From Phallus indusiatus (taxonomy: Eukaryota > Basidiomycota > Agaricomycetes > Phallales > Phallaceae): a stretch of DNA of 64,000 nucleotides. The translations under genes and the position numbers were made by a program. The stretch's first letter is position 1. Every line of letters starts with the position of its first letter. Positions 21,284 to 61,845 of the stretch are shown piece by piece. The notes below the pieces were generated by a model. The model was given only the letters and a program-made list of their open reading frames with translations. It was not told where the DNA came from and did no database searches. Location of the stretch: NCBI GenBank assembly GCA_027605045.1, contig JAQFWX010000001.1, positions 1,302,001-1,366,000 on the forward strand. Direction: 5' to 3'.

Positions 21284-21940
21284 ATGACTGTTCCTAGAAA
21301 ATAAACAAATAGAAATACACAAATACAAGCAAGAGCTCAAAAAAGAATAGTAAAAAACTGACATAATGTGGGCTTTTGTTGTTTATATGCTGTTTTTGGA
21401 GTTAGTGGCTGTGCCTTTTGACTTGTTTTTGCTGAGCTGGGTAAAAGTGCCCTAGATACATGACAAGAGCTCCAGGGGGTCCGGACCTTGCAGTGACATA
21501 TGGTTTGTGTCCCAGGCTTCAATTTCATCATACGTTCGCTGCAGAAAGCATGTCACAAAAAGATAAATGTGAATTATGAATATAACTTACCCGGGGTTTA
21601 GATGCGCTCTCCTGTACCATTTTTGGAAGGTACTTCTCTTCCCATATCTTACAGACGATGTCTATTGCTGTCTGTATCCATTCTTCCGGCCATTCTTTTT
21701 GTTTGAAATACTGTGTCTTGTACTGCAGATGGAACTATTAGGATAATTAGAGTGAATCATATATGATAGGCCATTAATATACCTACCCATGGCTGTACAG
21801 TGTCGCGCACCAAAATCTTCCCTTTTTGGTAATTTAGGTTGCTCAGCTAAAAAGCGGACATTCAAAATCCTATCTTCCTGAACTACTCACTTCCAGCTCA
21901 TTTGACACCCCCAGTTTACCCAAATCAACAAAACAATAAA

Positions 21941-22894
21941 ATGTTCAATCTTCGACTCTCTTCCTCCATTTCTTTCAAACACCCTTCTCCTACTCCTATT
22001 TCTCGAGAACCTTCCCCAGAAGAAGATGTTTCACCCCCAATCTTTCGTTATTCTCACGATAGTCCTCGCACTCACGATCTGGATATCGAGACGACTTTAT
22101 TCACATATTATTCACCCACTCCTATTCTCGAGATCGACCCAAAGACTGTCACGGTACGCTAGCGCCTTTTCCGATTATTCGATTTCTTCGATTTCTTTCG
22201 GTTTCATTTTGTGTTACGATTTCCTTCATTTCCCGTACTTTGCCGTTTCCATTAGTTCCATCGTTTTCTCGATTTTTCGATCTCTTCGATTTTCCTCGAT
22301 TTCTGTCTGTATCTCCTCGGATCCCATGGGGATCAGTCGAGCGCTTCGTATCCTGTACTTATATGCGTTTTCCCTAGAGGGGGATACCTAAGCTTGTTCT
22401 CTTAGGTTTTCCCTCCTCTAGGTGAGTAGTTAGTCGCTGCCCCTCAATAGATCTTAGGTTTTCCCTCCTCTAGGTGTGTGCCCTGAGTCGCCCTAACAAA
22501 GACATTACTCCCAGTCTACTTGCACAAGGTTCCTCGAACTATCGCTAAGTGTAGAAGTTCAGATATCGTACACCCCTTTTTGGCTTTTGGAAAGGAAGTT
22601 TACATCGAGAAAGAATTAAGATGGTTCACAGTCACTCATGTTTATTCAACTCCAGAATCAGCTCTACAAGATTCATATCGTGTTTGGCTAACAGCACAAG
22701 TTGGATTGGATTACATGATTATGGTCCTGGATGTTCCCAGCCGATGGATCCTAATAGCATGTAATCATCAACCTGCCTTAGGATTTTATCGATCACCCAA
22801 TCCTATCTCGAAAGAACCTCTAAACCCTCTATTTCATGATCCTTCACCCCCTCAATCCCCTACTTCCTCCAAAATGACCATACGACCTCCCTGA
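21941..22894 (+). pseudogene. U3 reading frame 1 (unknown protein), split by a solo LTR
   Basis: The frame starts MFNLRLSSSISFKHPSPTP at 21941 and is interrupted at 22147 by a 352-bp LTR with TSD AAGAC. It resumes at 22499 and ends at 22892-22894. The added length (352 + 5 = 357) is a multiple of three and the frame on both sides agrees, so before that insertion it was one open frame of about 198 codons. Its second half (IAKCRSSDIVHP, KEVYIEKELRWFTV, TPESA, VLDVPSRWILI) matches the frame at 50870-50298 minus (RQCRSSDLVHP, KVYIEEQLNWFTVV, TPESA, VLDVPSRWVIM). No known domain was recognised; both have Pro/Ser-rich tails. The protein is carried by the LTR and is not a host gene. Confidence 0.72.
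22147..22498 (+). mobile_element. Solo LTR, family 3 (352 bp), TSD AAGAC
   Basis: The ends are TGTCACGGTACGCTAGCG and GAGTCGCCCTAACA, with AAGAC at 22142-22146 and 22499-22503. It is inserted inside reading frame 1 of the giant solo LTR and is therefore younger than that LTR. Confidence 0.9.
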
Positions 22895-23094
22895 TATCAG
22901 CAAACCCTTCGCACACTTCGACGTGTTTGTTCTGGCCTCCTAGAACGAACCTGATCAAGAAACATTGGAGAACAATAAAGAATAAAAGAATAACGATTCT
23001 GGAGAAGTTTCGCGCCTTTCATTTTATCAAAAACATTCTTTCTGTTTTGGAGCTTTAATTCTCTTTTTCAACTCTTAACCTTCCATTATCCATT

Positions 23095-23652
23095 ATGTCC
23101 ATCCAACCTATTGGTTATCGCACACTCCCCATCATCCCTATTCCTTATTATCCCGACCTTAATTCACCTCCTCCATATAGACTACATGGAGAATTTCAAA
23201 CTGTGGTTCGCAAATATCAATTGGAAAGCGATGAAGTAGAAGTAGAAGAAGGTGATCCATGGCCTCGACACTACAATCTCATGCTCGACTTCCAGTATTT
23301 TTACGATGATCTGAAGCTGCCTGGTGACATCAAAGTAGACGAATGCATTCATATCCCTATCATGCAAGCTTCGTATACTCTGATTGGGGCCCTTGCATCC
23401 CATCGTCCTGGAATTTTAATCTGGTGTCTTATCTTCTATCGCGCTGCCCTGTTTCACAATTATGTCCTTTTCCTAGATGCCCCTTTCGATGTCTTCACTG
23501 AACCCCCTCCACACCAACCCACTGCTCCCTTACCCGAATATGAAGAACCTGAAGAGCTTATACCTAATGCTCCGCAACTTCGCCGAAATCGAAATCGTAT
23601 GCGTCCTATGATAGTCAATCCAATACCTAGACAGCGCAGGAGATTAGAATAA
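23095..23652 (+). CDS. U3 reading frame 2 (unknown protein, 185 aa)
   Basis: An open frame starting MSIQPIGYRTLPIIPIPYY and ending RRRLE-stop. It aligns with the frame at 50110-49529 minus in the other giant LTR: HIPIMQASYTLIGALASHRP against NVMHESYEFVGFLRAQRDG, then GILIWCLIFYRAALFHNYVL against GVLIWRLVFRNWFYGYVQFL. Both continue FLDAP/FVDAP and a PP-Y...E-rich tail ending in basic residues. No known domain, signal peptide or clear membrane helix. It lies upstream of the LTR promoter, so it would be copied in the 3' part of the genomic RNA. Conservation in two diverged LTRs argues for a function in the element. Confidence 0.68.
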   Translation: MSIQPIGYRTLPIIPIPYYPDLNSPPPYRLHGEFQTVVRKYQLESDEVEVEEGDPWPRHYNLMLDFQYFYDDLKLPGDIKVDECIHIPIMQASYTLIGALASHRPGILIWCLIFYRAALFHNYVLFLDAPFDVFTEPPPHQPTAPLPEYEEPEELIPNAPQLRRNRNRMRPMIVNPIPRQRRRLE

Positions 23653-24088
23653 GAAGGGAAGAATAGTACTCATCGATCAAGATCGCGATCTCTTCTTTTT
23701 GACAGAAGCCAAGGGTACTTTAAGAACTCGATGGATCCATCGACAGATACCTGATCAGTAGGAAAAATAAGAGGATGGTGGTATGGTTCAAGAAAGAGGC
23801 AGCGTGGGAAGTGCCAGGTGTTGATTATGGCAAGGCTGTGTTATGAGTCAGTTCCTTCTTTTCCTGTTGATCCCTCTTTTGTGTTTCTTTTGTTCTTTGT
23901 TCTTGATTTTCCCGTCATCGTTTCACCAGTCGATATGAAATCTCTTCTTTTGTTGTAATTGTATCTCCCTTCTTTCTCTCGCGATTCTCCTATCCTCTCA
24001 TTTCTCTTTTTGGTCTTATTATTTCTTTTGTTTGTTATTCCGGTGAATGATGAGTGATCGTCTCACCAAAGCTATGTACTCTGAAAGG

Positions 24089-24096
24089 TATAAATA
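24089..24096 (+). promoter_or_regulatory. TATA box of the giant solo LTR
   Basis: TATAAATA followed by CTGCATGTAAATACTTGTAACAG. The same block with TATATATA occurs in both LTRs of the 48665-59727 element. It marks the U3/R border, placing both LTR reading frames in U3. Just downstream is a conserved block of TCAAGT/TTCAG repeats. Confidence 0.65.
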
Positions 24097-24457
24097 CTGC
24101 ATGTAAATACTTGTAACAGCAGCAATTCTACCGGACGAGTTGTCTCACAGTTTAAGTCTCAGTCAAGTTCAGTTTAAGTCAAGTTCAGCTCAAGTCAAGT
24201 TTCGCCTCTAGTCTATTTCTACGCTCGTATCTATATCTTTGGATTAACTCTGAGTGAGGTCTCGGAGTATAAACTAGCGATTTTATTTCAGTTTATCGCT
24301 TTCACTAACTCGCACAGGAATTCAGTCATCATTGATTGCAGGTCCTCTCTTTAGTCGCATTCCAAGTTCATTGCCGACTTTCTGTTCACCCTCTCACTTG
24401 CACAGTTGCATACGATCTTTTATCATTGCAGTTGTTGTTGGTGTTTTGTTTGTGTTG

Positions 24458-24855
24458 CACTGGAGACATAGGAAAGTTTGCTTGACATGCAAACCATTAA
24501 ACAAACTCCAAGCAGAGACCCAGTTTGCTTGGAGTTTCCTACTGTTTCAAACTTTGTACAAACTCTCAATTTGATCAGAGTTTACTTGTGGAAGTAGATT
24601 TTATACAAATTTTCTGACAAACCTTAATTAAATGTTATGTGAATGTTATGCAGATGCTGAACAAGCAATCTGCTCAAGGTTTCCATATAATTTGCATCAA
24701 AATCTATTCATAGGATGCTTAGCCAAGCAAACTTCTATCAAACTCAAAGTTTTCACAAAGTTTGATCCATCCAGAAAACTTTAGGCAAACTAGGTCTCTG
24801 CTTAGAGTTTGCTTAATGGTTTGCATGTCAAGCAAACTTTCCTATGTCTCCAGTG
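24458..24855. mobile_element. 398-bp TIR element (CACTGGAGACATAGGAAAG)
   Basis: The inverted termini extend about 70 bases (CACTGGAGACATAGGAAAG; inner block ACATGCAAACCATTAA). TGTTG flanks both sides. The homologous position in the two LTRs at 48665-50989 and 57404-59727 is empty, which confirms a clean insertion into U5 of the giant LTR. It shares only the outer CACTGGAGACAT with the elements at 20469 and 28815. Confidence 0.82.
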
Positions 24856-25643
24856 TGTTGGTTTGATATCGATGCATACATCCCTCCCCCATTCCCCACA
24901 CACACCCACTCCCTCTCTCACGTTGAATTCAGCACCAGGACACGCTCCACGGTAGACTTACCGACCTCGAAACAAATATCTCATTGTAGTCCGATCATTT
25001 ATAGCCGACACATTTAGCTATTCACATCGGATCATTACAACGGTAGACTTCACTCTGGTCAGACAATCCATAATACTTGTCTAAAATATGTGTGCCGCAT
25101 TTAGCAGCATGATGGACGGCAGGATGTAGGTCTTCGTCATCAATAATCTTGTCTAAGTGTTTGCGCAAATAATCAATGGTTGGGATGACTTGATAGATGA
25201 GGGAGGCGTCCGAGCGACTCATCTTCTGAGTTGCTACTTTGAAAGCCTAAATAGATAATGTTAATAAGGGAATTGAAGACAAGGAACCATACCTTTAAAA
25301 GTGGTTGCAGCTGCTCAATTATGGCCCACTCATGAGCGCGCAGATGGTATTTCTCCAGCTTAAGGTCTTCATATCGAGCAGCAGTGCAGAGCTTGACTAC
25401 TGCCAGACGATTGTGAAGATGGCATTCCAGAGCTTTGACGTGGGTGTTCCACCGAGTAGGAACCGCCTTAATAGGAGCCAGAGGTGTGATCCCTTCAGCT
25501 TTTGAGCATTCTGCGAGTGCTGTGCGTTTGGTATTGGAGCGAGCGAGCGTTGTGGCAAAACTGGTAACCTGATGGATGAACTAAGTTAATGAATTGATAT
25601 AATGATATATGGACATACCTTTTTTAACGTGAACATCGCCTCT

Positions 25644-32934: not shown

Positions 32935-34125
32935 ATGGCTCCTACTACCAGGAGTCAGAGTGCACCAGATCGTGGTACACCTGATTCCAATCAGCCTGAC
33001 CCACCCGGGCCAGTGCAAACCGAAAATCCCGACCCGTCTAGGGAAGGAACCCTCGAAGGAGAGTCATCCACATGGGAGAGAGTGGATGCATCAACCCAAA
33101 ATCCCACTCGTCCTGCGTCGCAGACGATGGAACATCAGCCCCAACTCGCTGATGAAGAAGATGAGGACGTAAAGTCCATAGCATCTGGTCACTCCAGACT
33201 TAGCGTCAGGAGCGACAGGTCCATCCGAAGGGACGAGACAATGAACGCTGTTCACGCATCGTTACTCGATGGCGTGAGGAACGGGAATATGTCCCCGTCA
33301 GAACTGCAGAGACTAGCTCGATTAATCGAGAATGTCAATGCAGGAGTTGAAAACCCTGAGCCAGAGCCTGTTACTACAGGCACTGACAGGGACCAAGTCA
33401 GGACAACAGACTTGTCTCCTGAAGCAGAGCCTGCACGAGCACGCTCTGACAAAGGAAAAAGCAGAGCGGTAGATCCGCCTGCATCAGGTACTGGATCTAC
33501 TCGTCCTAGACCAGCAGGGCCGACGAGTCGCCTTGCATATCAATTCACAAACCCAGCCCCACAAGCTAGGTTTGTTACACCGACGGGACCGACATATGCC
33601 AGTCCGTCACCAGCGACAGCTGGTAATTCCCAATCCCCTGAGCCTGCACCAACAGGCACCAGACAACGTTCTCAGAACGTTACCCCAGGACCGAGTACGC
33701 GTCCTGATAGACCTCCTACTCAAGGAGCTATGGCATATACAGCTCCTAGAAACCCCGGCCCCGAAATAGAGGCTGGCAGAGAAACAGTGAGACGAATGCA
33801 CCGTTTCACAAGACAACCGCCTCACGAGTCTGACGCGGTTGGTGACTATATCGATACCGAGATAGCCACGCGACTGGTGAACCAGTCGCGAAATGGAACA
33901 CCCCCACGAGAGGATGCTGAAGTGGTCGCCCAAGCTGCCCTCGAATACCAGAGGATAGCAAGGCTACTCTCCGACAGAGCAATCCGTACGCATGCACGGG
34001 CTGTGGAGACGGCCACTAATGCGCTCGAGGAAGCTGTAGCAGGCTCTCTCGAGACTGACACTCCCAACGAGCAGCAAATGCGGATCATCCAAAATAGGAT
34101 CCGCATCGCGAGGACGCGCGTATGA
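32935..34125 (+). CDS. Chromovirus ORF1, N-terminal Gag-like protein
   Basis: It starts MAPTTRSQSAPDRGTPDSN 86 bases after the LTR and runs 396 codons to TGA at 34123-34125. It is hydrophilic, rich in Pro, Ser, Arg and Gln, with predicted disorder and helical stretches (LQRLARLIENVN, EIATRLVNQSRN, NALEEAVAGSLE). No known domain, but the position suggests the matrix-like part of Gag. Its stop overlaps the ATG of the next frame as ATGA (34122-34125), which could allow reinitiation; alternatively a single-base change split one long Gag. A second copy, on the minus strand at 59801 and 48656, starts identically. Confidence 0.75.
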   Translation: MAPTTRSQSAPDRGTPDSNQPDPPGPVQTENPDPSREGTLEGESSTWERVDASTQNPTRPASQTMEHQPQLADEEDEDVKSIASGHSRLSVRSDRSIRRDETMNAVHASLLDGVRNGNMSPSELQRLARLIENVNAGVENPEPEPVTTGTDRDQVRTTDLSPEAEPARARSDKGKSRAVDPPASGTGSTRPRPAGPTSRLAYQFTNPAPQARFVTPTGPTYASPSPATAGNSQSPEPAPTGTRQRSQNVTPGPSTRPDRPPTQGAMAYTAPRNPGPEIEAGRETVRRMHRFTRQPPHESDAVGDYIDTEIATRLVNQSRNGTPPREDAEVVAQAALEYQRIARLLSDRAIRTHARAVETATNALEEAVAGSLETDTPNEQQMRIIQNRIRIARTRV

Positions 34126-46570: not shown

Positions 46571-46598
46571 CAATGCCTCAGATTCCATATTTGGCACC

Positions 46599-46950
46599 TG
46601 TTAGGGCGACTCAGGGCACACACCTAGAGGAGGGAAAACCTAAGATCTATTGAGGGGCAGCGACTAACTACTCACCTAGAGGAGGGAAAACCTAAGAGAA
46701 CAAGCTTAGGTATCCCCCTCTAGGGAAAACGCATATAAGTACCGAATATGAGGCACCCGACTGATCTCTATGGGATCCGAGGAGATACAAACAGAAATCG
46801 AAAGAAATCAAAGAGATCGAGAAATCGAGAAATCGAGGGAACTAATGGAAACGGCAAAGTACGGGAAATGAAGGAAATCGTAATACGAAATGAAACCGAA
46901 AGAAATCGAAGAAATCGAATAATCGGAAGAGGCGCTAGCGTACCGTGACA
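46599..46950 (-). mobile_element. Family 3 LTR (352 bp), no matching TSD
   Basis: Complete ends TGTTAGGGCGACTC and GCTAGCGTACCGTGACA. The flanks (GCACC left, ATTCA right) do not match, so one side was rearranged after insertion. On the right it abuts a 20-bp piece of the giant LTR end. Confidence 0.8.
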
Positions 46951-48163: not shown

Positions 48164-49198
48164 GACGAGTAGATCCAGTACCTGGTGCAGGCGAATCTAC
48201 CGCTCTGCTTTTTCCTTTGTCAGAGCGTGCTCATGTAGGCTCTGCTTCAGGAGACAAGTCTGTTGTCCTGACTTGGTCCCTGTCAGTGCCCGTAGTGACA
48301 GGCTCTGGCTCGGGGTTTTCAACTCCTGCATTGACATTCTCGATTAATCGAGCTAGTCTCTGCAGTTCTGACGGGGACATATTCCCATTCCTCACACCAT
48401 CGAGTAACGATGCGTGAACAGCGTTCATTGCCTTGTCCCTTCGGATGGACCTGTCACTCTTGACACTAAGTCTGGAGCGACCAGATGCTACGGACTTTAC
48501 GTCCTCATCTTCTTCATCAGCGAGTTGAGGCTGATGTTCCATCGTCTGTGACACAGGACGAGTGGGATTTTGGGTTGATGCATCCACTCTCTCCCATGTG
48601 GATGACTCTCCTTCGAGGGTTCCTTCCCTAGATGGGTCGGGATTTTCAGTTTGCACTGGCCCGGTGTAACGATCCGATGTGAATAGCTAAATGTGCCGGC
48701 TATAAATGATCGGACTACAATGAGATTTTTGTTTCGAGGTCGGTAAGTCTACCGTGGAGCGTGTCCTGGTGCTGAATTCAACGTGAGAGAGGGAGTGGGT
48801 GTGTGTGGGGAATGGAGGGGGATGTATGCGTCGATATCAAACCAACAAAAAAACACCAACAACAACTGCAATGATAAAAGATCGTATGCAACTGTGCAAG
48901 TGAGAGGGTGAACAGAAAGTCGGCAATGAACTTGGAATGCGACTAAAGAGAGGACCTGCAATCAATGATGACTGAATTCCTGTGCGAGTTAGTGAAAGCG
49001 ATAAACTGAAATAAAATCGCTAGTTTATACTCCGAGACCTCACTCAGAGTTAATCCAAAGATATAGATATGAGCGTAGAAATAGACTAGAGGCGAAACTT
49101 GACTTGAGCTGAACTTGACTTGAACTTGACTTAAACTGATCTGAACTGTGAGACAACTCGTCCGGTAGAATTGCTGCTGTTACAAGTATTTACATGCA

Positions 49199-49208
49199 GT
49201 ATATATAC
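49199..49208 (-). promoter_or_regulatory. LTR TATA box
   Basis: On the minus strand GGTATATATACTGCATG. Its 5' LTR counterpart lies at about 57938-57947. The conserved position relative to the solo LTR at 24089 fixes the U3/R border. Confidence 0.6.
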
Positions 49209-49528
49209 CTTTCAGAGTACATAGCATTGGTGAGACGATCACTCATCGTTCACCGGGATAGCAAACAAAAAGAAACAAAAGAACAAAAGAAATATGGCAG
49301 ATAGGGGGAATCGCGAGAGAAAGATGGGAGATACAATTACAACAAAAAGAACAACATACATTGATAGGAGAAAATGATGAAACCCGAAACAAAGAACAAA
49401 AGAAAACAAAGAAGAGATCAAAATAGGAAAAACAAAACCGGCTGGAGACACAGCCCTAGCCTGACTCAACACCTGGCACTTCCCGCGCTGCCTCTATCCT
49501 GTACCATACCTATACCATCTCATTCTTC

Positions 49529-50110
49529 TTACTGATCTGGCTCTGGCTGCTGAGATCGGCTTCTTCGTGGCAGTGGAAGAATGATGATGGGACTAGGAAT
49601 CGATGGTCGCCTCAGATCTTCGAACAGATCGCTTTCCACTTCTTGATATGAGGGAGGTGGGCGAGTAAGATCATCTGAAAAGTCTGGGGGAGGTGGCATG
49701 ACGGATAGGGGGGCATCGACAAATAGAAACTGTACGTATCCATAAAACCAATTGCGGAAAACTAATCTCCATATAAGTACTCCATCCCTTTGAGCTCTCA
49801 GGAACCCGACAAACTCGTACGATTCGTGCATGACGTTGATGTCCGTTCGTTCGTATAGAGTTAGTGCTCGCGGGTATCCTAGTTCTAAATCATCGTAAGG
49901 AAGGGTTATTTCCAGAGATGGGGGAGGTGTAGCGGGGAGTACTGTATTAGCGTCGATATTGATTTCGGAGGTGAAGGTGTTGTAGACACGGATTATGGTA
50001 AGGAAGCCTGGATTTGGTCCGGTTCGGAGAGAAGAACGGAACGTGAAGGGGAAGAAGGGAAGTTGTAAATAAGGAGTTGAGTTTTGTGAGTTTTCATGGT
50101 AGTACGACAT
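49529..50110 (-). CDS. U3 reading frame 2 (193 aa), unknown
   Basis: It starts MSYYHENSQNSTPYLQLPF. The conserved middle reads NVMHESYEFVGFLRAQRDGV / LIWRLVFRNWFYGYVQFLFV and then DAP. The tail is PPxY-bearing (RPPPSYQEVES) and ends in RRSRSQQ. PPxY is a ligand for WW-domain proteins such as Nedd4/Rsp5 ubiquitin ligases, so a host contact is conceivable but unproven. The homologue is at 23095-23652. The 5' LTR copy is frameshifted by a G-run length change. Confidence 0.68.
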   Translation of the reverse strand: MSYYHENSQNSTPYLQLPFFPFTFRSSLRTGPNPGFLTIIRVYNTFTSEINIDANTVLPATPPPSLEITLPYDDLELGYPRALTLYERTDINVMHESYEFVGFLRAQRDGVLIWRLVFRNWFYGYVQFLFVDAPLSVMPPPPDFSDDLTRPPPSYQEVESDLFEDLRRPSIPSPIIILPLPRRSRSQQPEPDQ

Positions 50111-50297
50111 AGTGGGATAACAGGATGAAAAGAAGCGCTAAGGGGACTGTACGAGAAGGAAGAAGAAAAGTAAGTGAATCTGATTGTTTTTGCCTCGTAT
50201 ACTATCTTTATTGTTCTAAATTCGTCCAAAAATATTGGAACAAGCTCGTCGGATCTTTCGGAAGGATCGTTTGGTGGGAGAAGAGGGACTGGGAAGG

Positions 50298-50870
50298 TTA
50301 GGGAGGACTGCGTTGGAGAAGTGTCGAATGATAAAGGGAGAATCGTGATGGTGGGGTGTCTTCTGGGATAGGATTCGTGGGTCTGGAAGGGCTAAGTTTT
50401 TGCGTACTCATGCCCTTCATGATTACCCATCGACTTGGCACGTCCAGTACTAAAAACGTGAACTTGAATCCTTCTTGAGTTGCTAACCATATTCGATACA
50501 AGTCCCGTTTTGCTGATTCTGGTGTCAAATATATGTTAACAACTGTAAACCAGTTTAATTGCTCCTCGATATAAACTTTCTCTCCAAACATGATTCCGGG
50601 GTGAACCAGATCCGAACTTCTGCACTGACGGATAACGATAGGTGAAGGTTCCTTCGGTAAGTGCGTGTCCCGATCGAGGTCGAGGCTTGCATATTTGGAA
50701 CTATAGATATACAGAGTCGTAAAAAGATCCAAATCGTATGTCCTGGGACTGGAAGGCGAATAACGAAAAGGAGACATAGATTCATTATCAGAAAGAATTG
50801 GTGATTCGGTGGAGGAATTTGGAATTGGTAAAGAGACTGAGGATGAGTAATGGAACGAAAACGTAGTCAT
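50298..50870 (-). CDS. U3 reading frame 1 (about 190 aa), unknown
   Basis: I chose the ATG at 50870 (MTTFSFHYSSSVSLPIP) because the solo-LTR homologue starts at the matching place (both after AACAATAAA). An upstream ATG at 50990 exists only at this junction with the internal region. Conserved blocks are FRYSPSSPRTYDLDLFTTLY, RQCRSSDLVHPG and KVYIEEQLNWFTVVNIYLTP, then ESA and VLDVPSRWVIM. The N and C termini are Ser/Pro-rich. No domain recognised. The 5' LTR copy (59608 downward) carries three homopolymer differences that break the frame. Confidence 0.68.
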   Translation of the reverse strand: MTTFSFHYSSSVSLPIPNSSTESPILSDNESMSPFRYSPSSPRTYDLDLFTTLYIYSSKYASLDLDRDTHLPKEPSPIVIRQCRSSDLVHPGIMFGEKVYIEEQLNWFTVVNIYLTPESAKRDLYRIWLATQEGFKFTFLVLDVPSRWVIMKGMSTQKLSPSRPTNPIPEDTPPSRFSLYHSTLLQRSPP

Positions 50871-51020
50871 TTTATTGTTTTGAATTTTTGAGGCTGTGAT
50901 GTTGGCGATATGGGATTTCTGGATGATTAGAACTCCGCTTTGAACAAAAAAAGAACCTTCCCCAATTAGGAAGATTTTGGTGTGCGACATCCACCCTGAA
51001 CTTGAAATGACTGTCCCTAG

Positions 51021-54000
51021 TCAGAAATCTTCATCATCTCCAAAATCTTCCACAACCTGGTCATCGGCTTCTTTGGCTTCTTCTTCTTGCAACGGTTCAA
51101 TAGAAACTTCATCATCAACTCTGGGATAATAGAGAATTAACCTAAACCCTGCAATCGCAACTCGGGATACTGTTCCATCTAATTCCTTCAATACATATGT
51201 TCCTCGAGGTGTTCTCTTGACGACTTCGTAAGGTCCAATATAACGTGGTTTCGTCTTTCGGTCAAGTTCCTTTTCAATGCGTGAATTCCGAACCAAAACT
51301 AAATCTCCAGGCTTAAATTCTTCTCGCTGTATGCGCTGTGCAAATTTCTTCTCAAAGGCTTCCTTGCTGTGAAGTCGACTGCGATGAAGGATCTTTTCAG
51401 CTCGTGAAACATCGCTGTCCATTTTCCTGATTTGCTGAACTCGTAAGGCAATTAGATCTTCTGTGGCAAGATTTCTGTCGAATCCAGAGACCAAAAATGT
51501 AGCTTCGAATAGGTCGAGGGGGAGCGTAGGATGTTGACCATAAAGTAGATAATAGGGTGAAAAACCAGTAGCTCGTCGAACAGTAACTCTATCAGCGAAA
51601 AACACATGAGAAATGAGCTCAGGCCATTTTGAAATATTGCCTTGACATGACTTGATTAAGGCTTCTCGAATCGTGAAGTGTCCTCGCTCTACGACTCCAT
51701 TGGCTTGGGAATTGTAAGGTGAAATTCGAATTTGCTTGATATTGTAGCGTCGCATGAGTTCTTCTGTTGCAGCTTTAGTCTCTGGTCCATTATCAGTGAC
51801 GATTTCTTCAATAACTCCATATCGGCAAATGAGTTCCTCGAAAATAAACTGGGCTACTGAGCGTGCTGTGGCTTTCTTGAGTTTGCGTCCTTCAGCTGCT
51901 CCTGATAGATCGTCTCGAGCTGCAATAACATAACGATAGCCTTGGGCTGGAGTCATAAGCATAATATCGAGGTAGACTTTGGTGAAAAGCGAGGTTGGAT
52001 GAGAAATAGTGATGGGTATATGCATCTTGATCGTGGAACGAAGTTGGCAGGGGTGACATGATCGACAAAAATCGTGGACTTCTTCTCGAATTGTAGGCCA
52101 GTAGTAGCGTAAGGAGATGTGGCAGTATGTCGCAAATCCTCCTCGGTGTCCTAAATCGTCATGGGCCATCTTGAGTAATGTTTTCCTGTGATCTCTATCT
52201 AGAATTACACGTAAATGATGAAGGGGGTGCTTTTTGAAAAATAAATTGTCCTGAACAAAGAATTTTTGTGATTTTCGAATAAAACTTTTCTTATGAGAGG
52301 GAGAATCAAAGGGAGGCAAGATAAAATGAGAAAGAAATTGAAAAATGTGGTGAAGCTGCTCGTCATCTATCCGTTTGCTGTTGATTGCGAGCAACCACCC
52401 TGAACTTAAATTAAGAGTCTGAGAAGGGGAAAAAGAATGAGAAAGAAATAGAGCATATTCTGTGTTTTTGTGATTTTCTTCATTTTCGCTTTCACTCTCG
52501 TGAGCTTCTTCTTCGTTCCAATCTTCGGGTAATGGTGGTCGTCGGGATAATGCGTCTGGTCCTTTGTGTGATTCTGCTGGGACATGTTTTAGCTGGAAAT
52601 GGTATAGCAAAATTCCTTCAATCCATCGGTTAAGCGTGGCATTTGGGGCGATATCTGGATTGTTGATCATAGATTTGATGTAAGATGCATCAACTTCTAC
52701 AATAAAATTGAGTAGACCGGCAATGTAATAGCGACAAGCCTTGAGTGCGCGATATAATCCATATAACTCGAGTTTAGCTTGGCTATACTTTGCTTCGTTT
52801 GAGGAAATAGGGAGGGATCCAAAACGAACAGGTCTTCTTCGGCCTTCAGAATCCATCTGATACAAAATAAATCCGATTGCAATGACTGAAGTGTCTACTG
52901 CAAGAATAACGGGGGGTGGTGAGGAATAGTCAATAGGAACAAGTGCGGGGGAATTTGCAATCTCATTCTTCAAGTCTTCAAATGCAGCTTGTCGAACAGG
53001 TGTCCATTCGAAAGGTACTTCTTTTCGAACTAATTCTGAGAGTGGTCGCGATCGTGCAGAATAATTCTTGATCCAAATGCGCATTGTTCCGCAAAGTCCT
53101 AAAAACTGACGAACTTGAGTAACTGAAGTAGGAGGCGGCCAGGTTTGAATCTTCTTAACACGCTTCTCGTCTGGTAATCGTCCGGTATAAGTCAATTTCT
53201 GTCCAATAAGCACAATCTCGGGTTGCGCTATTTTTGACTTCTTCGGTGAGATAGTAGCGCCGGCATGACTGAGTCTGTGAAGGATACGATGAACATCTTC
53301 GGCATGTTCCCAAATAAAACGTCGAATTCCAGGGTTCTGAGGAATGACTTCGAATGTTCCATCGGCTTGCTCGTAACGTGTATGCGGTCCTTGAATACCA
53401 ACGTCATCGATCATAACGCTTGCTTTAGTTGGAAATTCGGGTTGTAAGATGAACGAAGTGCAATTTTGAAATTCAGCGACTGAATTGGTAAATCCTTGAG
53501 GAAGAACTGTAGAGCGTAGAAGTCCTAATGGTGTATGAAATGACGTAAGGTCTCGACTCTTGACATGGATCTTGCGTGCGTCATATCCGGATAATAGATC
53601 AAAGCTAGAATAGACTGAAGCGCCTGTGAAGGGTTCTAACATTTCATCTGTGTTTGGAGGCATTCCTGCATCTCGAATTGTGACTGAATTAAGGGGTTGA
53701 TGATCGATAATCTGACGAATTCCTCCGTCGGTCTTCTTGATGAAAAACATGGCAGTTCGATAAGATGCTTGACTATATTCGTAGACTCCAATGTCAAGTT
53801 TCTTCTTCAACGCTTCGATGACTTGTGTTCGAATTCCTGGAGGTACAGGGATTGGTTTCTTCATCCAAGGTATATGCTGTACTACAGGGATAATGTAATC
53901 GGAAAAATAATCTGACCGGAGAGTTCCTCGTTCTGTTTCGTTGAAAGCGAGTACAGATTCATTTTGTTGGAAGACGGAGATGAATAGTTTTTCTTCTTCT

Positions 54001-54146
54001 GGCCAAAGAAAGCCTGAATCATTTATGCGGAGTATTCGGAGGCGTTCTGCGGTGAGTTTGGATGATGGAATAAATGTCGGTGGATGAGGGGATAAGGGAG
54101 TAAGGGAAATAAGGGGATCTTCGGAAATCTTCTCGTCACAAGACAA
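51021..54146 (-). CDS. Pol of the giant-LTR element: RT, RNase H, integrase
   Basis: The frame is 1041 codons as read from MSCDEKISEDPL. RT shows RQIIDHQPLNSVTIRDAG, SSFDLLSGYDARKI, the TVLPQGFTNS motif and the catalytic SVMIDDVGIQ (MIDD). RNase H shows VILAVDTSVIAIGFILYQ and AKLELYGLYRALKACR. Integrase has HDDLGHRG...CRSCHPCQ as zinc finger, then DDE positions in VYLDIMLMTP, IVTDNGPETKA and VVERGHFTI, and a C-terminal KPRYIGPYEVVKRTPRG. No chromodomain is evident; the C-terminus is acidic. The likely start lies upstream in another frame, so expression would need a frameshift. Confidence 0.9.
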   Translation of the reverse strand: MSCDEKISEDPLISLTPLSPHPPTFIPSSKLTAERLRILRINDSGFLWPEEEKLFISVFQQNESVLAFNETERGTLRSDYFSDYIIPVVQHIPWMKKPIPVPPGIRTQVIEALKKKLDIGVYEYSQASYRTAMFFIKKTDGGIRQIIDHQPLNSVTIRDAGMPPNTDEMLEPFTGASVYSSFDLLSGYDARKIHVKSRDLTSFHTPLGLLRSTVLPQGFTNSVAEFQNCTSFILQPEFPTKASVMIDDVGIQGPHTRYEQADGTFEVIPQNPGIRRFIWEHAEDVHRILHRLSHAGATISPKKSKIAQPEIVLIGQKLTYTGRLPDEKRVKKIQTWPPPTSVTQVRQFLGLCGTMRIWIKNYSARSRPLSELVRKEVPFEWTPVRQAAFEDLKNEIANSPALVPIDYSSPPPVILAVDTSVIAIGFILYQMDSEGRRRPVRFGSLPISSNEAKYSQAKLELYGLYRALKACRYYIAGLLNFIVEVDASYIKSMINNPDIAPNATLNRWIEGILLYHFQLKHVPAESHKGPDALSRRPPLPEDWNEEEAHESESENEENHKNTEYALFLSHSFSPSQTLNLSSGWLLAINSKRIDDEQLHHIFQFLSHFILPPFDSPSHKKSFIRKSQKFFVQDNLFFKKHPLHHLRVILDRDHRKTLLKMAHDDLGHRGGFATYCHISLRYYWPTIREEVHDFCRSCHPCQLRSTIKMHIPITISHPTSLFTKVYLDIMLMTPAQGYRYVIAARDDLSGAAEGRKLKKATARSVAQFIFEELICRYGVIEEIVTDNGPETKAATEELMRRYNIKQIRISPYNSQANGVVERGHFTIREALIKSCQGNISKWPELISHVFFADRVTVRRATGFSPYYLLYGQHPTLPLDLFEATFLVSGFDRNLATEDLIALRVQQIRKMDSDVSRAEKILHRSRLHSKEAFEKKFAQRIQREEFKPGDLVLVRNSRIEKELDRKTKPRYIGPYEVVKRTPRGTYVLKELDGTVSRVAIAGFRLILYYPRVDDEVSIEPLQEEEAKEADDQVVEDFGDDEDF

Positions 54147-54410
54147 TCCTGGGGAAGTATTGCTGGCACGGGCCGGATCTTCTTGTCGACGGTCTTGTAT
54201 GCGGTTAAAATGTCGGAAAATTGAGGATAATATTCGGGATTTTCTTCATAATGTTTTAAAAGGAGCCTATAAATAAAGTGATTGGGGATAAAGTTCGAGT
54301 CGTCACCGGGTTCATAAATAGGAAGCGAAATAAATAGGGAGATGGAGAAACGAATATTATAAGGGTCGGAAAAGGATGAATCTATTCCTGGTGAGGGTCG
54401 GGTGCATTCT
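54130..54410 (-). pseudogene. Bridging frame between gag-protease and pol
   Basis: This minus-strand frame reads PGIDSSFSDPYNIRFSISLF, then NHFIYRLLLKHYEENPEYYP and QFSDILTAYKTVDKKIRP. It connects the end of gag-protease to the N-terminal part of pol, but in a third frame. Either two frameshifts, natural or by sequence error, or a ribosomal frameshift would be needed to join them. Boundaries approximate. Confidence 0.45.
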
Positions 54411-57264
54411 TCTCTATGGTACGTCCATCTATCCTCTGAGGAGCTCTGTCGTCCAAGTGAAAATCCCTTGGGTGGAGACGTGCATCTTCTTTTGCATCTT
54501 TGGATGGTACGGCATTTATTCTCCATTCTTCATGTCCATATGCATCTCTCTTGACGAGGTGCGTTCCTGTGTATTCTTCACGAACTTCAATTCGGTTTTG
54601 TCGCATCCATGGTCGTCCCAAAATTAGAGGATGAGGGAGCAGTGGTGATACCCAAATTTCATCGGCAATACTCCAAGCTCGTTCTCCTATTTGTATTTTC
54701 ACGTTATATGCTCTTTCATCTAGCGTAGTCTTGTTGGAGGAGGCGTCCATTAATATCTTTGAGATGCCTGAATGGTACACTAAACCTGAATTTGGAGTTA
54801 CTACGGAACTGATGCAATTCACGTCTGCTCCAGTGTCTATAAGGGCAATGATGGAGTATCCGTTTGGGAATTTGACATTTAGGAATATAAGTCGAGAATC
54901 TTCTGGATGATAACTGGCCAAGAATTTTCGGGACGCTTCGGTTGCTGGGACTCTTTGCATATCTTCTTCAGCATCTGTTGTTGTTTCGGCTGCCTCGGGG
55001 ATCGCGGTTACTTCGGTTATCGTGGCTACAGGTATTTCATCTCGAGTAGGTCGAAGTTTTGCTATCATCATTTTGTCGAGCGTAGGTGCAGCTGCAAAAA
55101 CTTCTCGAAGCGTAAGTCCTGCATTTTGATCTAACATCCGATTTAGCGTGTTGTCCATATTGACTTCTCGTTCGAAAGAATTGCGAAATTTCTTGACAAT
55201 TTCGGTGGACTCGGACTCTGGCTTTTCTTTAACGATGGCCGGCTTAGGGGTGGCTGGACGTGGTGCAGGTCGCTTTACTCTAGTAGGGACAGGGTCTTGC
55301 ATTCTAACATCGGTTATCTCTTCTCCTCGCATAGGAAATGGGATATGAGTGACTTTCGGCTCTGGAACAGGTGCCTGAACTGGTACTGGTGCTTGAATAG
55401 GAGGCTGAGGTTGCAACGCTGGAGGTAACTTGGAAGGTGCTAATTGCGTAGTTGGCTCTGTATTAGGTGCGGAAGGAGCTGATTTGGGTATGGCAGGATT
55501 AACTGGCCGTTTCATGATCTCAACTCCATCAAAGCGTAATCGTTTAGCGTAAGGGGCTGTACGGACGGAGTCTTTTCCTTTTTCGTCCTTGGTCCGCGCG
55601 ATAGGGTACGCTTCAGAAAAGTATTCTCTACTAAAAATGTTATCTACTGAACACGCTTGGTTATACTCATCGTCGCTTAACATGATCTCTTCTCTATCTC
55701 TCCCGTAATTATTTATTGAAGAGTAGTGGCTAATACTATCTGGGAAAGGAAGGGAATTGGTGGAAGAAATAATGGTATTGGCCGTTACTGGTACGCGTTG
55801 GACGTCCAATTGTCGATTGATAGCCGCAAGCAGCGATTCACCATTGAATCTGGTGATCGGCTTACCCGTGCTAGACCATACGTATTTGTTATCGGCACTG
55901 ACAGTGATATAACCTTGATCCATGAATGTAGTAGCGTGAGGGCAGCGATGCATCGTGTGTCCGGATTCATCGCAGAAGTAGCAGACGACGTTCGCATTGT
56001 TAGTGGGGTTGCTGAGCGTGCGAGGACGAGGAACTGGGGGAATTTGTACAGGGAGTGGATTGGACGGAGGCATAGATGAAGGAATAGAATGTGGCATATT
56101 AAATAAAGTGAGAAGGACAGGAGCAAGAGACGGGGACAAGGTAGCAATACGGTGGTACGCGGAGAGAATCGCAGGGTAGTCGCGGAGAGTCAGCTTTTCG
56201 TTGAACTCTTTGATTAGTTTATCGATCTCGTCCGTATCGCTCTTTGTTACACGTTTCGACGCAGTCGGATAGTTTCCCGTCGGCTGTGACGGCGTACTAT
56301 GTTTCGGCACTGAGGGCAAAGACGACGATTCCTGCGGAGTAGGTTGTAACATATCCAAGCCAGGAGAAGTACCGCTATGCCGTTCAGGCAAAGGAATGCG
56401 ATCATCATTTGAATGCCGACGTTGAGCATGGTGGGAGGATGACTTCTTAGACTTCTTAGACTTCTTTTTGCTGTGTCTTTTATAGCTTCTTTCTTCATCG
56501 GAACTTTCATCCCAACCAGAGTCGCTTTCCGTTTCGGATTCAGATCCGGAGCTAGTTAAGATGACTTCATCATCGGAATTGGACTGCTTTCTTGATTTCT
56601 TGCGCCTTTCCATTCTGTGTTGCTGATCGTACCTCTTCGGATCTAATATGAATTTGATTACGGTTATGATCTCTTTCTTGGTATACGGGTTCTCCATACT
56701 ACGTCCTGGATACGTTGCTACTAAATGTAAGTCGCTTCGTCTTTTGAGATCTTTGGAAAGCCCTTCCCAAAAGCGTAAGTTGTACCTGTTTTCGTCGATT
56801 ACGCCTTTCTTTAATAGTTTTCCGGCTATTAAGTCGAAGTTACGAGTGTATTTATTGAATTCATATAGATCTAGAATTTCGCCTTCACGTTGATCTTCTA
56901 CAAAATCGTTGAGCTTTTCTTCGGTGTAACGCTTTGTGTCCTTGCGAGCACCATAAACTTCGCGCATATATTCGATGAATTCGGTCCAATTCTTTTCGAA
57001 GGATTCAAGACTTTCCATATGTTTCTTGACCCTCTTGGACACATATTGTGGGATCCTCGCGAATTTGTCTTTGTCAGATAACTTGTATACTTTGCATAGA
57101 TCTTCAAACTGATCGAAGAAGGCCTTGGCTTCAGAGGTTTTGCCTGTGAACTTTCTGGGGGCTCGAGTAGATCTGGGTAGCGGAAACTCCATTTTCTTGA
57201 CGTCATAATTGGGATTCGCTTCGGTAGTTTCGGGTTTAAGAGGAAGAGGATCGGAAGTAGGCAT
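54382..57264 (-). CDS. Gag-protease of the giant-LTR element (960 aa)
   Basis: It starts MPTSDPLPLKPETTEANPNY about 140 bases after the 5' LTR. The capsid-like region is in the first quarter (KFTGKTSEAKAFFDQFEDL, SKRVKKHMESLESFEKNW). A basic and acidic Ser-rich segment (SESETESDSGWDES, KKKSKKSKKSSSHHAQRR) follows, then the CCHC zinc knuckle CYFCDESGHTMHRC. A Pro-rich linker leads to the aspartic protease YSIIALIDTGADVNCIS, ending LPHPLILGRPWMRQN. This length (960 aa with protease in frame) and the DTGA catalytic motif are intact. Confidence 0.9.
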   Translation of the reverse strand: MPTSDPLPLKPETTEANPNYDVKKMEFPLPRSTRAPRKFTGKTSEAKAFFDQFEDLCKVYKLSDKDKFARIPQYVSKRVKKHMESLESFEKNWTEFIEYMREVYGARKDTKRYTEEKLNDFVEDQREGEILDLYEFNKYTRNFDLIAGKLLKKGVIDENRYNLRFWEGLSKDLKRRSDLHLVATYPGRSMENPYTKKEIITVIKFILDPKRYDQQHRMERRKKSRKQSNSDDEVILTSSGSESETESDSGWDESSDEERSYKRHSKKKSKKSKKSSSHHAQRRHSNDDRIPLPERHSGTSPGLDMLQPTPQESSSLPSVPKHSTPSQPTGNYPTASKRVTKSDTDEIDKLIKEFNEKLTLRDYPAILSAYHRIATLSPSLAPVLLTLFNMPHSIPSSMPPSNPLPVQIPPVPRPRTLSNPTNNANVVCYFCDESGHTMHRCPHATTFMDQGYITVSADNKYVWSSTGKPITRFNGESLLAAINRQLDVQRVPVTANTIISSTNSLPFPDSISHYSSINNYGRDREEIMLSDDEYNQACSVDNIFSREYFSEAYPIARTKDEKGKDSVRTAPYAKRLRFDGVEIMKRPVNPAIPKSAPSAPNTEPTTQLAPSKLPPALQPQPPIQAPVPVQAPVPEPKVTHIPFPMRGEEITDVRMQDPVPTRVKRPAPRPATPKPAIVKEKPESESTEIVKKFRNSFEREVNMDNTLNRMLDQNAGLTLREVFAAAPTLDKMMIAKLRPTRDEIPVATITEVTAIPEAAETTTDAEEDMQRVPATEASRKFLASYHPEDSRLIFLNVKFPNGYSIIALIDTGADVNCISSVVTPNSGLVYHSGISKILMDASSNKTTLDERAYNVKIQIGERAWSIADEIWVSPLLPHPLILGRPWMRQNRIEVREEYTGTHLVKRDAYGHEEWRINAVPSKDAKEDARLHPRDFHLDDRAPQRIDGRTIEKNAPDPHQE

Positions 57265-57381
57265 ATTGGGATAGAGTGGTCAGGGGAATGGAAGTATGAA
57301 TGAGATGTCGGTTAGATAAGGAGATGGGATGTTGTTGTGATGGTTGGTTGCGGATGAATGTGAAAGCAGCTTAGACTAGTT

Positions 57382-57400
57382 GCCTCTCTGGGGCAGCCAC
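57382..57400 (-). promoter_or_regulatory. Probable primer-binding site
   Basis: On the minus strand, three bases after the 5' LTR end (GTTACA-AAAG), TGGCTGCCCCAGAGAGGC begins with the TGG expected of a site complementary to a tRNA 3' CCA end. The tRNA was not identified. Confidence 0.5.
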
Positions 57401-57403
57401 TTT

Positions 57404-59727
57404 TGTAACGATCCGATGTGAATAGCTAAATGTGCCGGCTATAAATGATCGGACTACAATGAGATTTTTGTTTCGAGGTCGGTAAGTCTACCGTGGAGCG
57501 TGTCCTGGTGCTGAATTCAACGTGAGAGAGGGAGTGGGTGTGTGTGGGGAATGGAGGGGGATGTATGCGTCGATATCAAACCAACAAAAAAACACCAACA
57601 ACAACTGCAATGATAAAAGATCGTATGCAACTGTGCAAGTGAGAGGGTGAACAGAAAGTCGGCAATGAACTTGGAATGCGACTAAAGAGAGGACCTGCAA
57701 TCAATGATGACTGAATTCCTGTGCGAGTTAGTGAAAGCGATAAACTGAAATAAAATCGCTAGTTTATACTCCGAGACCTCACTCAGAGTTAATCCAAAGA
57801 TATAGATATGAGCGTAGAAATAGACTAGAGGCGAAACTTGACTTGAGCTGAACTTGACTTGAACTTGACTTAAACTGATCTGAACTGTGAGACAACTCGT
57901 CCGGTAGAATTGCTGCTGTTACAAGTATTTACATGCAGTATATATACCTTTCAGAGTACATAGCATTGGTGAGACGATCACTCATCGTTCACCGGGATAG
58001 CAAACAAAAAGAAACAAAAGAACAAAAGAAATATGGCAGATAGGGGGAATCGCGAGAGAAAGATGGGAGATACAATTACAACAAAAAAGAACAACATACA
58101 TTGATAGGAGAAAATGATGAAACCCGAAACAAAGAACAAAAGAAAACAAAGAAGAGATCAAAATAGGAAAAACAAAACCGGCTGGAGACACAGCCCTAGC
58201 CTGACTCAACACCTGGCACTTCCCGCGCTGCCTCTATCCTGTACCATACCTATACCATCTCATTCTTCTTACTGATCTGGCTCTGGCTGCTGAGATCGGC
58301 TTCTTCGTGGCAGTGGAAGAATGATGATGGGACTAGGAATCGATGGTCGCCTCAGATCTTCGAACAGATCGCTTTCCACTTCTTGATATGAGGGAGGTGG
58401 GCGAGTAAGATCATCTGAAAAGTCTGGGGGAGGTGGCATGACGGATAGGGGGGCATCGACAAATAGAAACTGTACGTATCCATAAAACCAATTGCGGAAA
58501 ACTAATCTCCATATAAGTACTCCATCCCTTTGAGCTCTCAGGAACCCGACAAACTCGTACGATTCGTGCATGACGTTGATGTCCGTTCGTTCGTATAGAG
58601 TTAGTGCTCGCGGGTATCCTAGTTCTAAATCATCGTAAGGAAGGGTTATTTCCAGAGATGGGGGAGGTGTAGCGGGGAGTACTGTATTAGCGTCGATATT
58701 GATTTCGGAGGTGAAGGTGTTGTAGACACGGATTATGGTAAGGAAGCCTGGATTTGGTCCGGTTCGGAGAGAAGAACGGAACGTGAAGGGGAAGAAGGAA
58801 GTTGTAAATAAGGAGTTGAGTTTTGTGAGTTTTCATGGTAGTACGACATAGTGGGATAACAGGATGAAAAGAAGCGCTAAGGGGACTGTACGAGAAGGAA
58901 GAAGAAAAGTAAGTGAATCTGATTGTTTTTGCCTCGTATACTATCTTTATTGTTCTAAATTCGTCCAAAAATATTGGAACAAGCTCGTCGGATCTTTCGG
59001 AAGGATCGTTTGGTGGGAGAAGAGGGACTGGGAAGGTTAGGGAGGACTGCGTTGGAGAAGTGTCGAATGATAAAGGGGAGAATCGTGATGGTGGGGTGTC
59101 TTCTGGGATAGGATTCGTGGGTCTGGAAGGGCTAAGTTTTTGCGTACTCATGCCCTTCATGATTACCCATCGACTTGGCACGTCCAGTACTAAAAACGTG
59201 AACTTGAATCCTTCTTGAGTTGCTAACCATATTCGATACAAGTCCCGTTTTGCTGATTCTGGTGTCAAATATATGTTAACAACTGTAAACCAGTTTAATT
59301 GCTCCTCGATATAAACTTTCTCTCCAAACATGATTCCGGGTGAACCAGATCCGAACTTCTGCACTGACGGATAACGATAGGTGAAGGTTCCTTCGGTAAG
59401 TGCGTGTCCCGATCGAGGTCGAGGCTTGCATATTTGGAACTATAGATATACAGAGTCGTAAAAGATCCAAATCGTATGTCCTGGGACTGGAAGGCGAATA
59501 ACGAAAAGGAGACATAGATTCATTATCAGAAAGAATTGGTGATTCGGTGGAGGAATTTGGAATTGGTAAAGAGACTGAGGATGAGTAATGGAACGAAAAC
59601 GTAGTCATTTTATTGTTTTGAATTTTTGAGGCTGTGATGTTGGCGATATGGGATTTCTGGATGATTAGAACTCCGCTTTGAACAAAAAAAGAACCTTCCC
59701 CAATTAGGAAGATTTTGGTGTGCGACA
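57404..59727 (-). repeat. 5' LTR of the giant-LTR element (2324 bp)
   Basis: Same content as the 3' LTR. Differences seen are all run-length changes: A-run near 58086 (+1), G-run near 58797 (-1), G-run near 59076 (+1), G-run near 59338 (-1) and A-run near 59460 (-1). These break both U3 reading frames in this copy. Confidence 0.92.
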
Positions 59728-59864
59728 CCGGGTGGGTCAGGCTGATTGGAATCAGGTGTACCACGATCTGGTGCACTCTGACTCCTGGTAGTAGGAGCCA
59801 TTGAATCCTCCTGTAATAGGAAGTGTTAATTTCGCTTGCTTAATACAGTGGCGGGTTGTCTTTA

Positions 59865-61350: not shown

Positions 61351-61702
61351 TGTCACGGTACGCTAGCGCCTTTTCCGATTATTCGATTTCTTCGATTTCT
61401 TTCGGTTTCATTTCGTATTACGATTTCCTTCATTTCCCGTACTTTGCCGTTTCCATTAGTTCCATCGTTTTCTCGATTTCTCGATCTCTTCGATTTTCCT
61501 CGATTTCTGTCTGTATCTCCTCGGATCCCATGGGGATCAGTCGAGCGCTTCGTATCCTGTACTTATATGCGTTTTCCCTAGAGGGGGATACCTAAGCTTG
61601 TTCTCTTAGGTTTTCCCTCCTCTAGGTGAGTAGTTAGTCGCTGCCCCTCAATAGATCTTAGGTTTTCCCTCCTCTAGGTGTGTGCCCTGAGTCGCCCTAA
61701 CA
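61351..61702 (+). mobile_element. Family 3 LTR (352 bp) directly upstream of a gag gene
   Basis: It runs TGTCACGGTACGCTAGCG to GAGTCGCCCTAACA. The flanks ATGCG and GTAGA do not match, unlike most family 3 copies. A gag frame in the same orientation follows 144 bases later, so this could be the 5' LTR of that element, or an unrelated solo LTR with a rearranged side. Confidence 0.7.
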
Positions 61703-61845
61703 GTAGAACAAGCTTCTACCTTCGGACCGGTCGTTTCTATTGTCGTTTTCTTTCGGAAACTCTTTGTCAGCATTGTCTCAGACGTTCCCGACGCTTTTCG
61801 CCCATAAAACGACCCTCCATCCTTCGTTCTTCGATTTCTTTCGTC

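Follow-up and report, generated by a model that had tools for sequence, protein, structure and literature searches.

Two putative accessory genes in the U3 region of a Ty3-type LTR retrotransposon from the fungus Phallus indusiatus

Introduction

HIV nef and the foamy virus genes bel2/bet reach into the U3 region of the retroviral long terminal repeat (LTR). Mouse mammary tumour virus (MMTV), a betaretrovirus, is described as carrying the accessory gene sag in an exceptionally long LTR, where it is the 3′-most gene with a splice acceptor just upstream; its RNAs are spliced and start in the 5′ LTR or in env, and endogenous MMTV copies tend to keep sag open (PMC3026287). Here, we describe an LTR retrotransposon of Phallus indusiatus (Basidiomycota; Agaricomycetes), located in a stretch of 64,000 nucleotides (contig JAQFWX010000001.1, positions 1,302,001 to 1,366,000, assembly GCA_027605045.1; hereafter, the window), whose LTRs contain two open reading frames (ORFs), ORF1 and ORF2, ahead of the TATA box. 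The closest known analogue is MMTV sag, which the fungal element resembles in that its protein genes lie entirely within U3, ahead of the promoter of the LTR, and from which it differs in that it has two such genes, is of the Ty3 type, shows no env-like gene, encodes proteins without a Pfam family and is known from sequence alone.

Other elements share single aspects of this layout. The additional ORFs (aORFs) of plant elements are presented as extra genes behind pol that are conserved but functionally uncharacterised, mostly located between pol and the 3′ LTR, and the fungal element Boty has an antisense ORF of this class (PMC7264820); these are internal, whereas ORF1 and ORF2 lie within the LTR and are thus duplicated and kept by solo LTRs. 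In crapaud of Podospora anserina, the part of U3 that precedes the TATA box is reported as the main difference between subfamilies, and recombinant LTRs occur (PMC10787394); the variable part there spans less than 200 bp and is discussed in regulatory terms, whereas here ∼1.4 kb codes for two proteins. Retrosat2 and the RIRE elements of rice have LTRs of ∼3 kb and an extra ORF0 upstream of the gag-pol ORF (PMC3485330); long LTRs and an extra ORF are thus shared, although ORF0 lies outside the LTR. A survey of fungal elements has an additional ORF in a figure legend and no coding LTR in the portions of its text that were available (PMC2864245), and the corresponding portions of PMC11963269 and PMC3601003 contain nothing on coding LTRs. 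The first-pass annotation of this DNA, made without database searches, knew of no described fungal LTR element of this layout, and we likewise find none whose U3 carries protein genes in open-access PMC text (a scope that does not extend to Repbase or subscription journals).

Results

Position of ORF1 and ORF2 in the LTR

The window element lies on the minus strand in the order 5′ LTR, gag-protease, pol and 3′ LTR (Table 1). ORF1 starts ∼119 nt into the LTR, ORF2 ends ∼310 bp ahead of the core promoter, and the TATA-box core (AAGGTATATATACTGCATG) lies ∼1.8 kb from the LTR start. As both ORFs lie upstream of the TATA-box core, from which the transcription start is placed, they would therefore fall in U3, upstream of the LTR's own promoter. 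The pol stop codon is separated from the LTR by ∼30 nt and both ORFs are inside the repeat, so their position is not that of plant aORFs. The first-pass annotation had proposed two accessory genes in this position, and both the location of the two ORFs and the dN/dS analysis below support it. Its coordinates, orientation and placement relative to the TATA box hold, whereas its statement that both LTRs carry open frames does not, since both frames are broken in the 5′ LTR as assembled. Similarly, the sizes that it gave (190 and 193 codons) are right for the 3′ LTR of the window, but ORF1 is longer elsewhere (218 codons in 29 of 33 open copies); the window copy ends early because of a one-base length difference of the kind discussed below.

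The element itself is a Ty3-type LTR retrotransposon. The pol product has the Ty3/Gypsy (Metaviridae) order of reverse transcriptase (RT), RNase H and integrase, with Pfam matches above cut-off for RVT_1 (136-317), RNase H (381-510), H2C2 (650-704) and rve (726-813), and upstream of it the gag frame contains a zinc knuckle (CCHC, 427-443) and an aspartyl protease (801-892), both below the Pfam cut-offs. The LTRs have TG...CA ends (start TGTCGC, opening stretch TGTCGCAC; end GTTACA), a purine tract (AGGGTGGA) precedes the 3′ LTR, and a 4-bp target site duplication (TSD), CCGG, is found on both sides of the element (48661-48664 and 59728-59731). No chromodomain was matched in the window pol (Pfam, E up to 10), which leaves the element outside the definition of the chromovirus clade. 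In other copies, the pol frame extends further upstream and overlaps the end of gag (1169 codons), whereas the corresponding stretch of the window copy (54023-54526) is a separate frame, owing either to a length difference in this copy or to frameshifting. Short CAAGTT/CAAGTC repeats follow the TATA box (49080-49160) and are present in the LTR of family B (see below) too.

Table 1. Coordinates of the element, its LTR features and the second LTR family in the window
Feature	Position	Strand	Remarks
Whole element	48665-59727	-	5′ LTR, gag-protease, pol, 3′ LTR
3′ LTR, family A, 2325 bp	48665..50989	-	Direct repeat with 57404-59727; TSD CCGG follows; pol stop and polypurine-tract-like AGGGTGGA precede
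5′ LTR, 2324 bp	57404..59727	-	Direct repeat of 48665-50989
gag-protease frame	54382..57264	-	Zinc knuckle and aspartyl protease Pfam matches, both under cut-offs
pol: RT, RNase H, H2C2 zinc domain, integrase core	51021..54146	-	Pfam matches, Ty3 order
U3 ORF1, 3′ LTR copy, 190 codons (early end)	50298..50870	-	Frame list; dN/dS
U3 ORF2, 3′ LTR copy, 193 codons, open, with PPSY motif	49529..50110	-	Frame list; dN/dS
ORF2 region, 5′ LTR	58269..58849	-	A one-base length difference breaks the frame as assembled
ORF1 region, 5′ LTR	58953..59608	-	Frame broken by one-base length differences; low end approximate, placed after 218-codon copies
Core promoter TATATATA, 3′ LTR, 32 bp	49190..49221	-	
Core promoter, 5′ LTR	57929..57960	-	
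Family B LTR, single, with two nested insertions	21801..25039	+	Ends flanked by ACAG/ACGG
ORF2 homologue in family B LTR, open, 185 codons	23095..23652	+	35% identity to family A protein
ORF1 homologue in family B LTR	21941..22894	+	Interrupted by 352-bp repeat (∼22147-22498), early end

ORF1 and ORF2 are maintained as coding frames

Searching the genome that contains the window (67 Mb, 206 contigs) at the DNA level gave 50 matching stretches (best 40 of 140 candidates scored). In total, 50 LTR copies were examined, comprising 41 of the family to which the window element belongs (family A) and 9 of a second, diverged family (family B). The family A sample, which is non-random, consists of the two LTRs of the window element and 39 stretches taken by DNA score, whereas family B is represented by the window copy and 8 fetched copies that were picked from matches with an open ORF1 and no stop; the resulting count of 8/8 open is thus biased and is kept apart, as other family B matches from the same search have 1-3 stops, and the family B stretches L086, L087 and L103 do not have both frames open as assembled. 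With 'open' defined as 204-225 codons for ORF1 and 180-196 for ORF2 (i.e. allowing small end losses), ORF1 is open in 25 and ORF2 in 25 of the 41 family A copies, both are open in 15 and at least one in 35. The corresponding numbers for all 50 copies are 33, 34, 23 and 44, respectively; these counts may include two haplotypes of one locus, since several contig pairs have near-identical matches. As the choice of family A copies followed DNA score rather than frame, and selection is specific to one frame, the openness in family A is far beyond chance.

Single-base changes in length outnumber substitutions between closely related copies. Alignment of the two LTRs of the window element shows 0 substitutions, the only differences being 5 one-base changes of length within short runs; in a second young element (G000:C67:33943-44995), 0 substitutions and 3 such differences separate the LTRs. 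This pattern suggests homopolymer assembly errors. Comparison among family A copies was restricted to those that are long enough and have a recognisable start (29 of 41). Of these, 17 have their nearest relative 0-4 substitutions away, and these nearest pairs have 54 one-base length changes versus 27 substitutions, or twice as many (many pairs being counted from both sides). Some of the length differences may thus be assembly or sequencing errors, and for this reason the open-copy counts are probably lower bounds.

The ratio of nonsynonymous to synonymous change (dN/dS; Nei-Gojobori), for pairs with finite synonymous divergence (dS), is 0.04-0.45 for ORF1 and 0.10-0.28 for ORF2. In eight selected pairs, which overlap in their sequences and are not independent, dN/dS is 0.07-0.20 in frame versus 0.96-2.45 in the +1/+2 frames, the latter containing 7-17 stop codons. 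The individual values are 0.20 (L009-L029, 106 substitutions), 0.19, 0.19 and 0.07 (L078-L084) for ORF1 and 0.12, 0.14, 0.12 and 0.10 for ORF2, with in-frame Fisher p values of 3e-6 to 1e-26; the out-of-frame tests give p under 0.05 in 6 of 16 cases, toward more nonsynonymous change, which is a by-product of the in-frame signal. The first-pass annotation had named dN/dS near 1 and a lack of open homologues in other LTR copies as observations that would count against coding; instead, the ratios are low in one frame only, and open homologues are found in two LTR families as well as in public contigs. Together, these comparisons show ORF1 and ORF2 as protein-coding sequences under purifying selection. 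That U3 is instead conserved for regulation, with the open frames as a by-product, might be argued from the promoter that U3 contains and from stretches that are conserved close to the TATA box and within the first 63 nt, but as the main explanation this is refuted and retains next to no probability, given that the constraint follows one frame while the other two lack it and contain stops, and that synonymous change between the two families, A and B, has reached or nearly reached saturation.

Two U3 types are joined to one internal region

Protein searches of the genome revealed a second set of loci at ∼35-45% identity, designated family B. Its LTRs are ∼2.5 kb in length with the same order of both frames, and its proteins have ∼43% (ORF1) and ∼35% (ORF2) amino acid identity to those of family A. 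In the window, family B is represented by a single LTR (Table 1). A ∼400-bp insertion with inverted ends in R-U5 of this LTR (∼24451-24858) appears DNA-transposon-like by eye. Elsewhere in the genome, a 414-bp piece of family B ORF1 (99.5% identical) is found at L102 (G000:C112:208500-209900) in an open 197-codon frame that runs into unrelated sequence, possibly a capture of the ORF1 piece by another element or gene.

Despite the distance between the two families, their internal regions are nearly the same. At least five pol copies at 99-100% are found among the matches listed (best 44 of 612 candidates scored), and by coordinates three of them have a family A U3 and two a family B U3. The window element and the family B element L086 are 98.2% identical over 6482 columns covering the internal region and the first 63 nt of U3. 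Past this point, their U3s are unalignable except for 208 nt of ORF1 at 68%, and in promoter-R-U5 the two elements are 77% identical. The similarity at that end is higher in other pairs, reaching 98% over 286 bp between R-U5 of the window family B LTR and family A, and up to 98% per 150 nt on the promoter-R-U5 side of L078 and L029. A-B identity is 41-66% per 150 nt in U3 versus 77-98% on the promoter-R-U5 side. The two family B elements have differing sequence beyond the element at the one end compared and are thus not allele-like; in both, a single frame of the two is broken in the 3′ LTR that was read, as assembled. These alignments show near-identical internal regions joined to two diverged U3 types (with sub-variants). 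Since the internal region is 98% identical with either type of U3, the coding U3 appears to have been swapped as a cassette between elements, for which a template switch between co-packaged RNAs near the pol-U3 border would be the simplest mechanism.

Many solo LTRs retain both frames

The 32-bp core promoter stretch is found at 79 genome sites at up to 3 mismatches, and an ORF2-homologous stretch lies 242-1107 bp upstream on the same strand at 73 of the 79, a lower bound as ORF2 places were entered by hand and some short partial matches were left out. Of the 6 sites without such a stretch, the two that were read are truncated or interrupted LTRs. Among family A solo LTRs with an identical 4-bp duplication, both frames are open in 7 of 11, in agreement with the earlier suggestion that a solo LTR could keep both genes; with family B included, this number is 13 of 17, although all six family B solo LTRs (6/6) were chosen from matches without stops.

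Two further explanations can be considered. In the first, the U3 proteins made from many solo LTRs would act in trans on elements with the same type of U3 to limit their copy number, and a cassette swap would be an escape. We consider such self-limitation unlikely. LTRs do far outnumber complete elements (79 core-promoter sites versus the five or more listed pol copies at 99% or above), both frames are often open in solo LTRs, the swapped cassettes encode diverged proteins, and a precedent exists in Ty1, where p22, a protein encoded by the element and made from an alternative transcript, is reported to limit the element (PMC4599808). However, a self-limiting gene is hard to maintain by selection at the level of the element unless solo copies are themselves selected. 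Furthermore, p22, a possible functional parallel, is a truncated Gag, whereas the U3 proteins show no resemblance to the gag frame of the window element (BLASTP best E 0.50 and 0.54).

In the second, solo LTRs would be small resident genes used by the fungus, and host use rather than transposition would keep the frames open. Host use of endogenous copies has reportedly been suggested for MMTV sag in mice. In five clusters of very similar open copies, 48 of 93 singletons are nonsynonymous versus ∼63 expected when base change and CpG context are matched (ratios 0.35 to 0.64), a deficit that, like the 7 of 11 solo LTRs with both frames open, would fit with retention by the host, although only two clusters are individually beyond z = -2. 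Against this, comparisons between element lineages show stronger constraint than those among close copies, and the copies are many and scattered, several of them broken by nested insertions or length changes; retention by the host is thus improbable as the main cause. Weaker constraint among close copies is as predicted for selection on the transposing lineage, and some constraint on resident copies may act in addition.

The flanks of the LTR copies also point to an insertion preference of the element. At 44 sites with a readable left flank not adjoining a purine tract (46 left flanks, 2 dropped), positions -3 and -2 are CG in 40 and TG/CA in 4. Where both sides could be scored, the duplication is an identical 4-bp NCGN in 18 of 23 cases; four are off by one transition, and L010 abuts element interior (flanks of the window element, 48661-48664 / 59728-59731, and of L009-L047 and L078-L085). 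The preference for CpG targets is therefore near-absolute. To our knowledge, strict CpG targeting together with 4-bp duplications would be unusual for a Ty3-type element.

Features of the ORF1 and ORF2 proteins

Neither protein matches a Pfam family at E up to 10 (13 members each), the MMTV Sag family included (for which only the Pfam scan was made), and sequence matches in the PDB do not exceed chance (best E 0.17 and 0.21). ORF1 has the conserved blocks PRTxDxD..TTL, CRSSDxxHP, VYIE..WF, YxTPxS..D.YR.WL and DVPxxW, followed by a basic C-terminal tail; its core (∼47-152) is predicted as a mostly beta domain at a model confidence (pLDDT) of mostly 70-90, for which no convincing structural match was found. 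ORF2 is characterized by YDDL, IWRLxF (with one substitution in the window family B copy) and a D.P motif. In addition, a [PL]PxY motif, the type of ligand recognised by WW domains of Nedd4/Rsp5-type proteins, occurs after residue 120 in 34/34 open ORF2 copies (PPSY in 19, LPTY in 6 and LPEY in 9) and as LPSY in an ORF2 homologue from outside this genome (P0004, see below), whereas gag and pol of the window element lack it. Among ORF1 proteins, LPVY and PPRY occur in some of family B (two inspected), and no such motif is present in the three inspected from family A.

No clearly hydrophobic stretch indicative of a membrane span was found in five ORF1 and five ORF2 proteins (top 19-residue Kyte-Doolittle mean 1.33), and an envelope-like role is therefore disfavoured. 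DUF6699, considered for a PATxPP-like stretch, gave no Pfam match, and hhalign against 10 DUF6699 proteins of the same genome gave P = 0.19 (ORF2) and 0.41 (ORF1). The domain itself is present in 34 stretches of this genome and in 0 of 14 control genomes, in keeping with an agaricomycete host. When ORF1 and ORF2 were compared as possible paralogues, hhalign gave P = 0.008 over 41 columns and 0.02 over 32 (probability 4.8 and 2.4%).

Origin of the cassette

The two nearest pol relatives that were read in the same genome (52% then 45% amino acid identity along pol for one, 40-47% for the other) have LTRs of 270 and 675 bp by repeat extent, in which no sense stop-to-stop frame exceeds 76 codons, and both have a similar stem and purine tract just before the LTR. 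On the basis of these relatives, ORF1 and ORF2 were probably gained inside U3 in this lineage. Homologues outside this genome are present in the protein database for ORF1 (P0003, 67%; P0005, 49%; P0006, 44%) and for ORF2 (P0004, 60% over 69% of the query); the four proteins are known from contigs of 812 to 5489 bp, without LTR context. A gain of this kind could also mean that the cassette is a transduced host or foreign gene without a role for the element, and the absence of the cassette from the two pol relatives is compatible with it. Nevertheless, two diverged families and outside homologues at 44-67% identity speak for age and constraint rather than fresh capture, and L102 and L103, two matches that lack an ORF2 partner, are LTR-derived pieces (some other matches of the protein search being unchecked); we thus regard passive capture as very unlikely.

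Other repeats in the window

The element seemingly lies inside a copy of the gag-like frame of another retroelement, as both flanks continue that frame (compared at 48164-48664 and 33005-33505), and an open copy of this frame is found at 32935-34125 (+). A 352-bp repeat, probably a short LTR or a non-autonomous element, has at least seven copies in the window in both orientations (22147-22498, 19734-20086, 27968-28321, 34509-34860, 46598-46950, 61351-61703 and 62194-62546), the first of which is inside ORF1 of the family B LTR.

Discussion

Taken together, the position of the two frames, their selective constraint and their persistence across LTR copies make it likely that the U3 of a Ty3-type element has been enlarged by a two-gene cassette for accessory proteins that works along the following lines. 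Given how LTR elements replicate, U3 is present only at the 3′ end of the genomic RNA, so that ORF1 and ORF2 follow pol as the final two cistrons. Both would be translated from a spliced or separately initiated short RNA ending at the poly(A) site of the LTR; by analogy with MMTV sag, we think that such an RNA probably exists, albeit with slightly less assurance than for the cassette as a whole. Reverse transcription would then copy both genes into both ends of the element, and a template switch between pol and U3 could exchange the whole cassette among co-packaged RNAs.

What the proteins do can be proposed more tentatively. Through its conserved [PL]PxY motif, ORF2 may recruit a protein with WW domains, for which a ubiquitin ligase of the Nedd4/Rsp5 type is the most likely candidate, and ORF1 would contribute a small domain, mostly of beta structure, that ends in a conserved, basic C-terminal tail. 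It is conceivable that the two proteins together assist the element, either against its host or by acting through it, though we would not yet bet on it. The combination of cassette swapping with deep protein divergence suggests that the U3 proteins, and perhaps the adjacent promoter too, are specificity modules. A more speculative and rather unlikely extension is that a solo LTR is a working two-gene unit acting in trans on elements with cognate U3, with ORF2 as an adaptor for a WW-domain ligase and ORF1 as its partner, and that whole U3 cassettes are exchanged like phage immunity regions, leaving gag and pol unchanged.

LTRs are usually seen as regulatory, and solo LTRs as non-coding remains, whereas here the repeat is itself a gene carrier: it harbours two constrained genes, which exist in two diverged versions that can be exchanged, and no envelope gene is seen in the element. 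Should the proteins act in trans, the solo LTRs of the family would count as genes, and dating by neutral LTR divergence would be doubtful for it. The element would, in that case, also allow the question of how MMTV and other such retroviruses gained a gene in U3 to be studied in a fungus.

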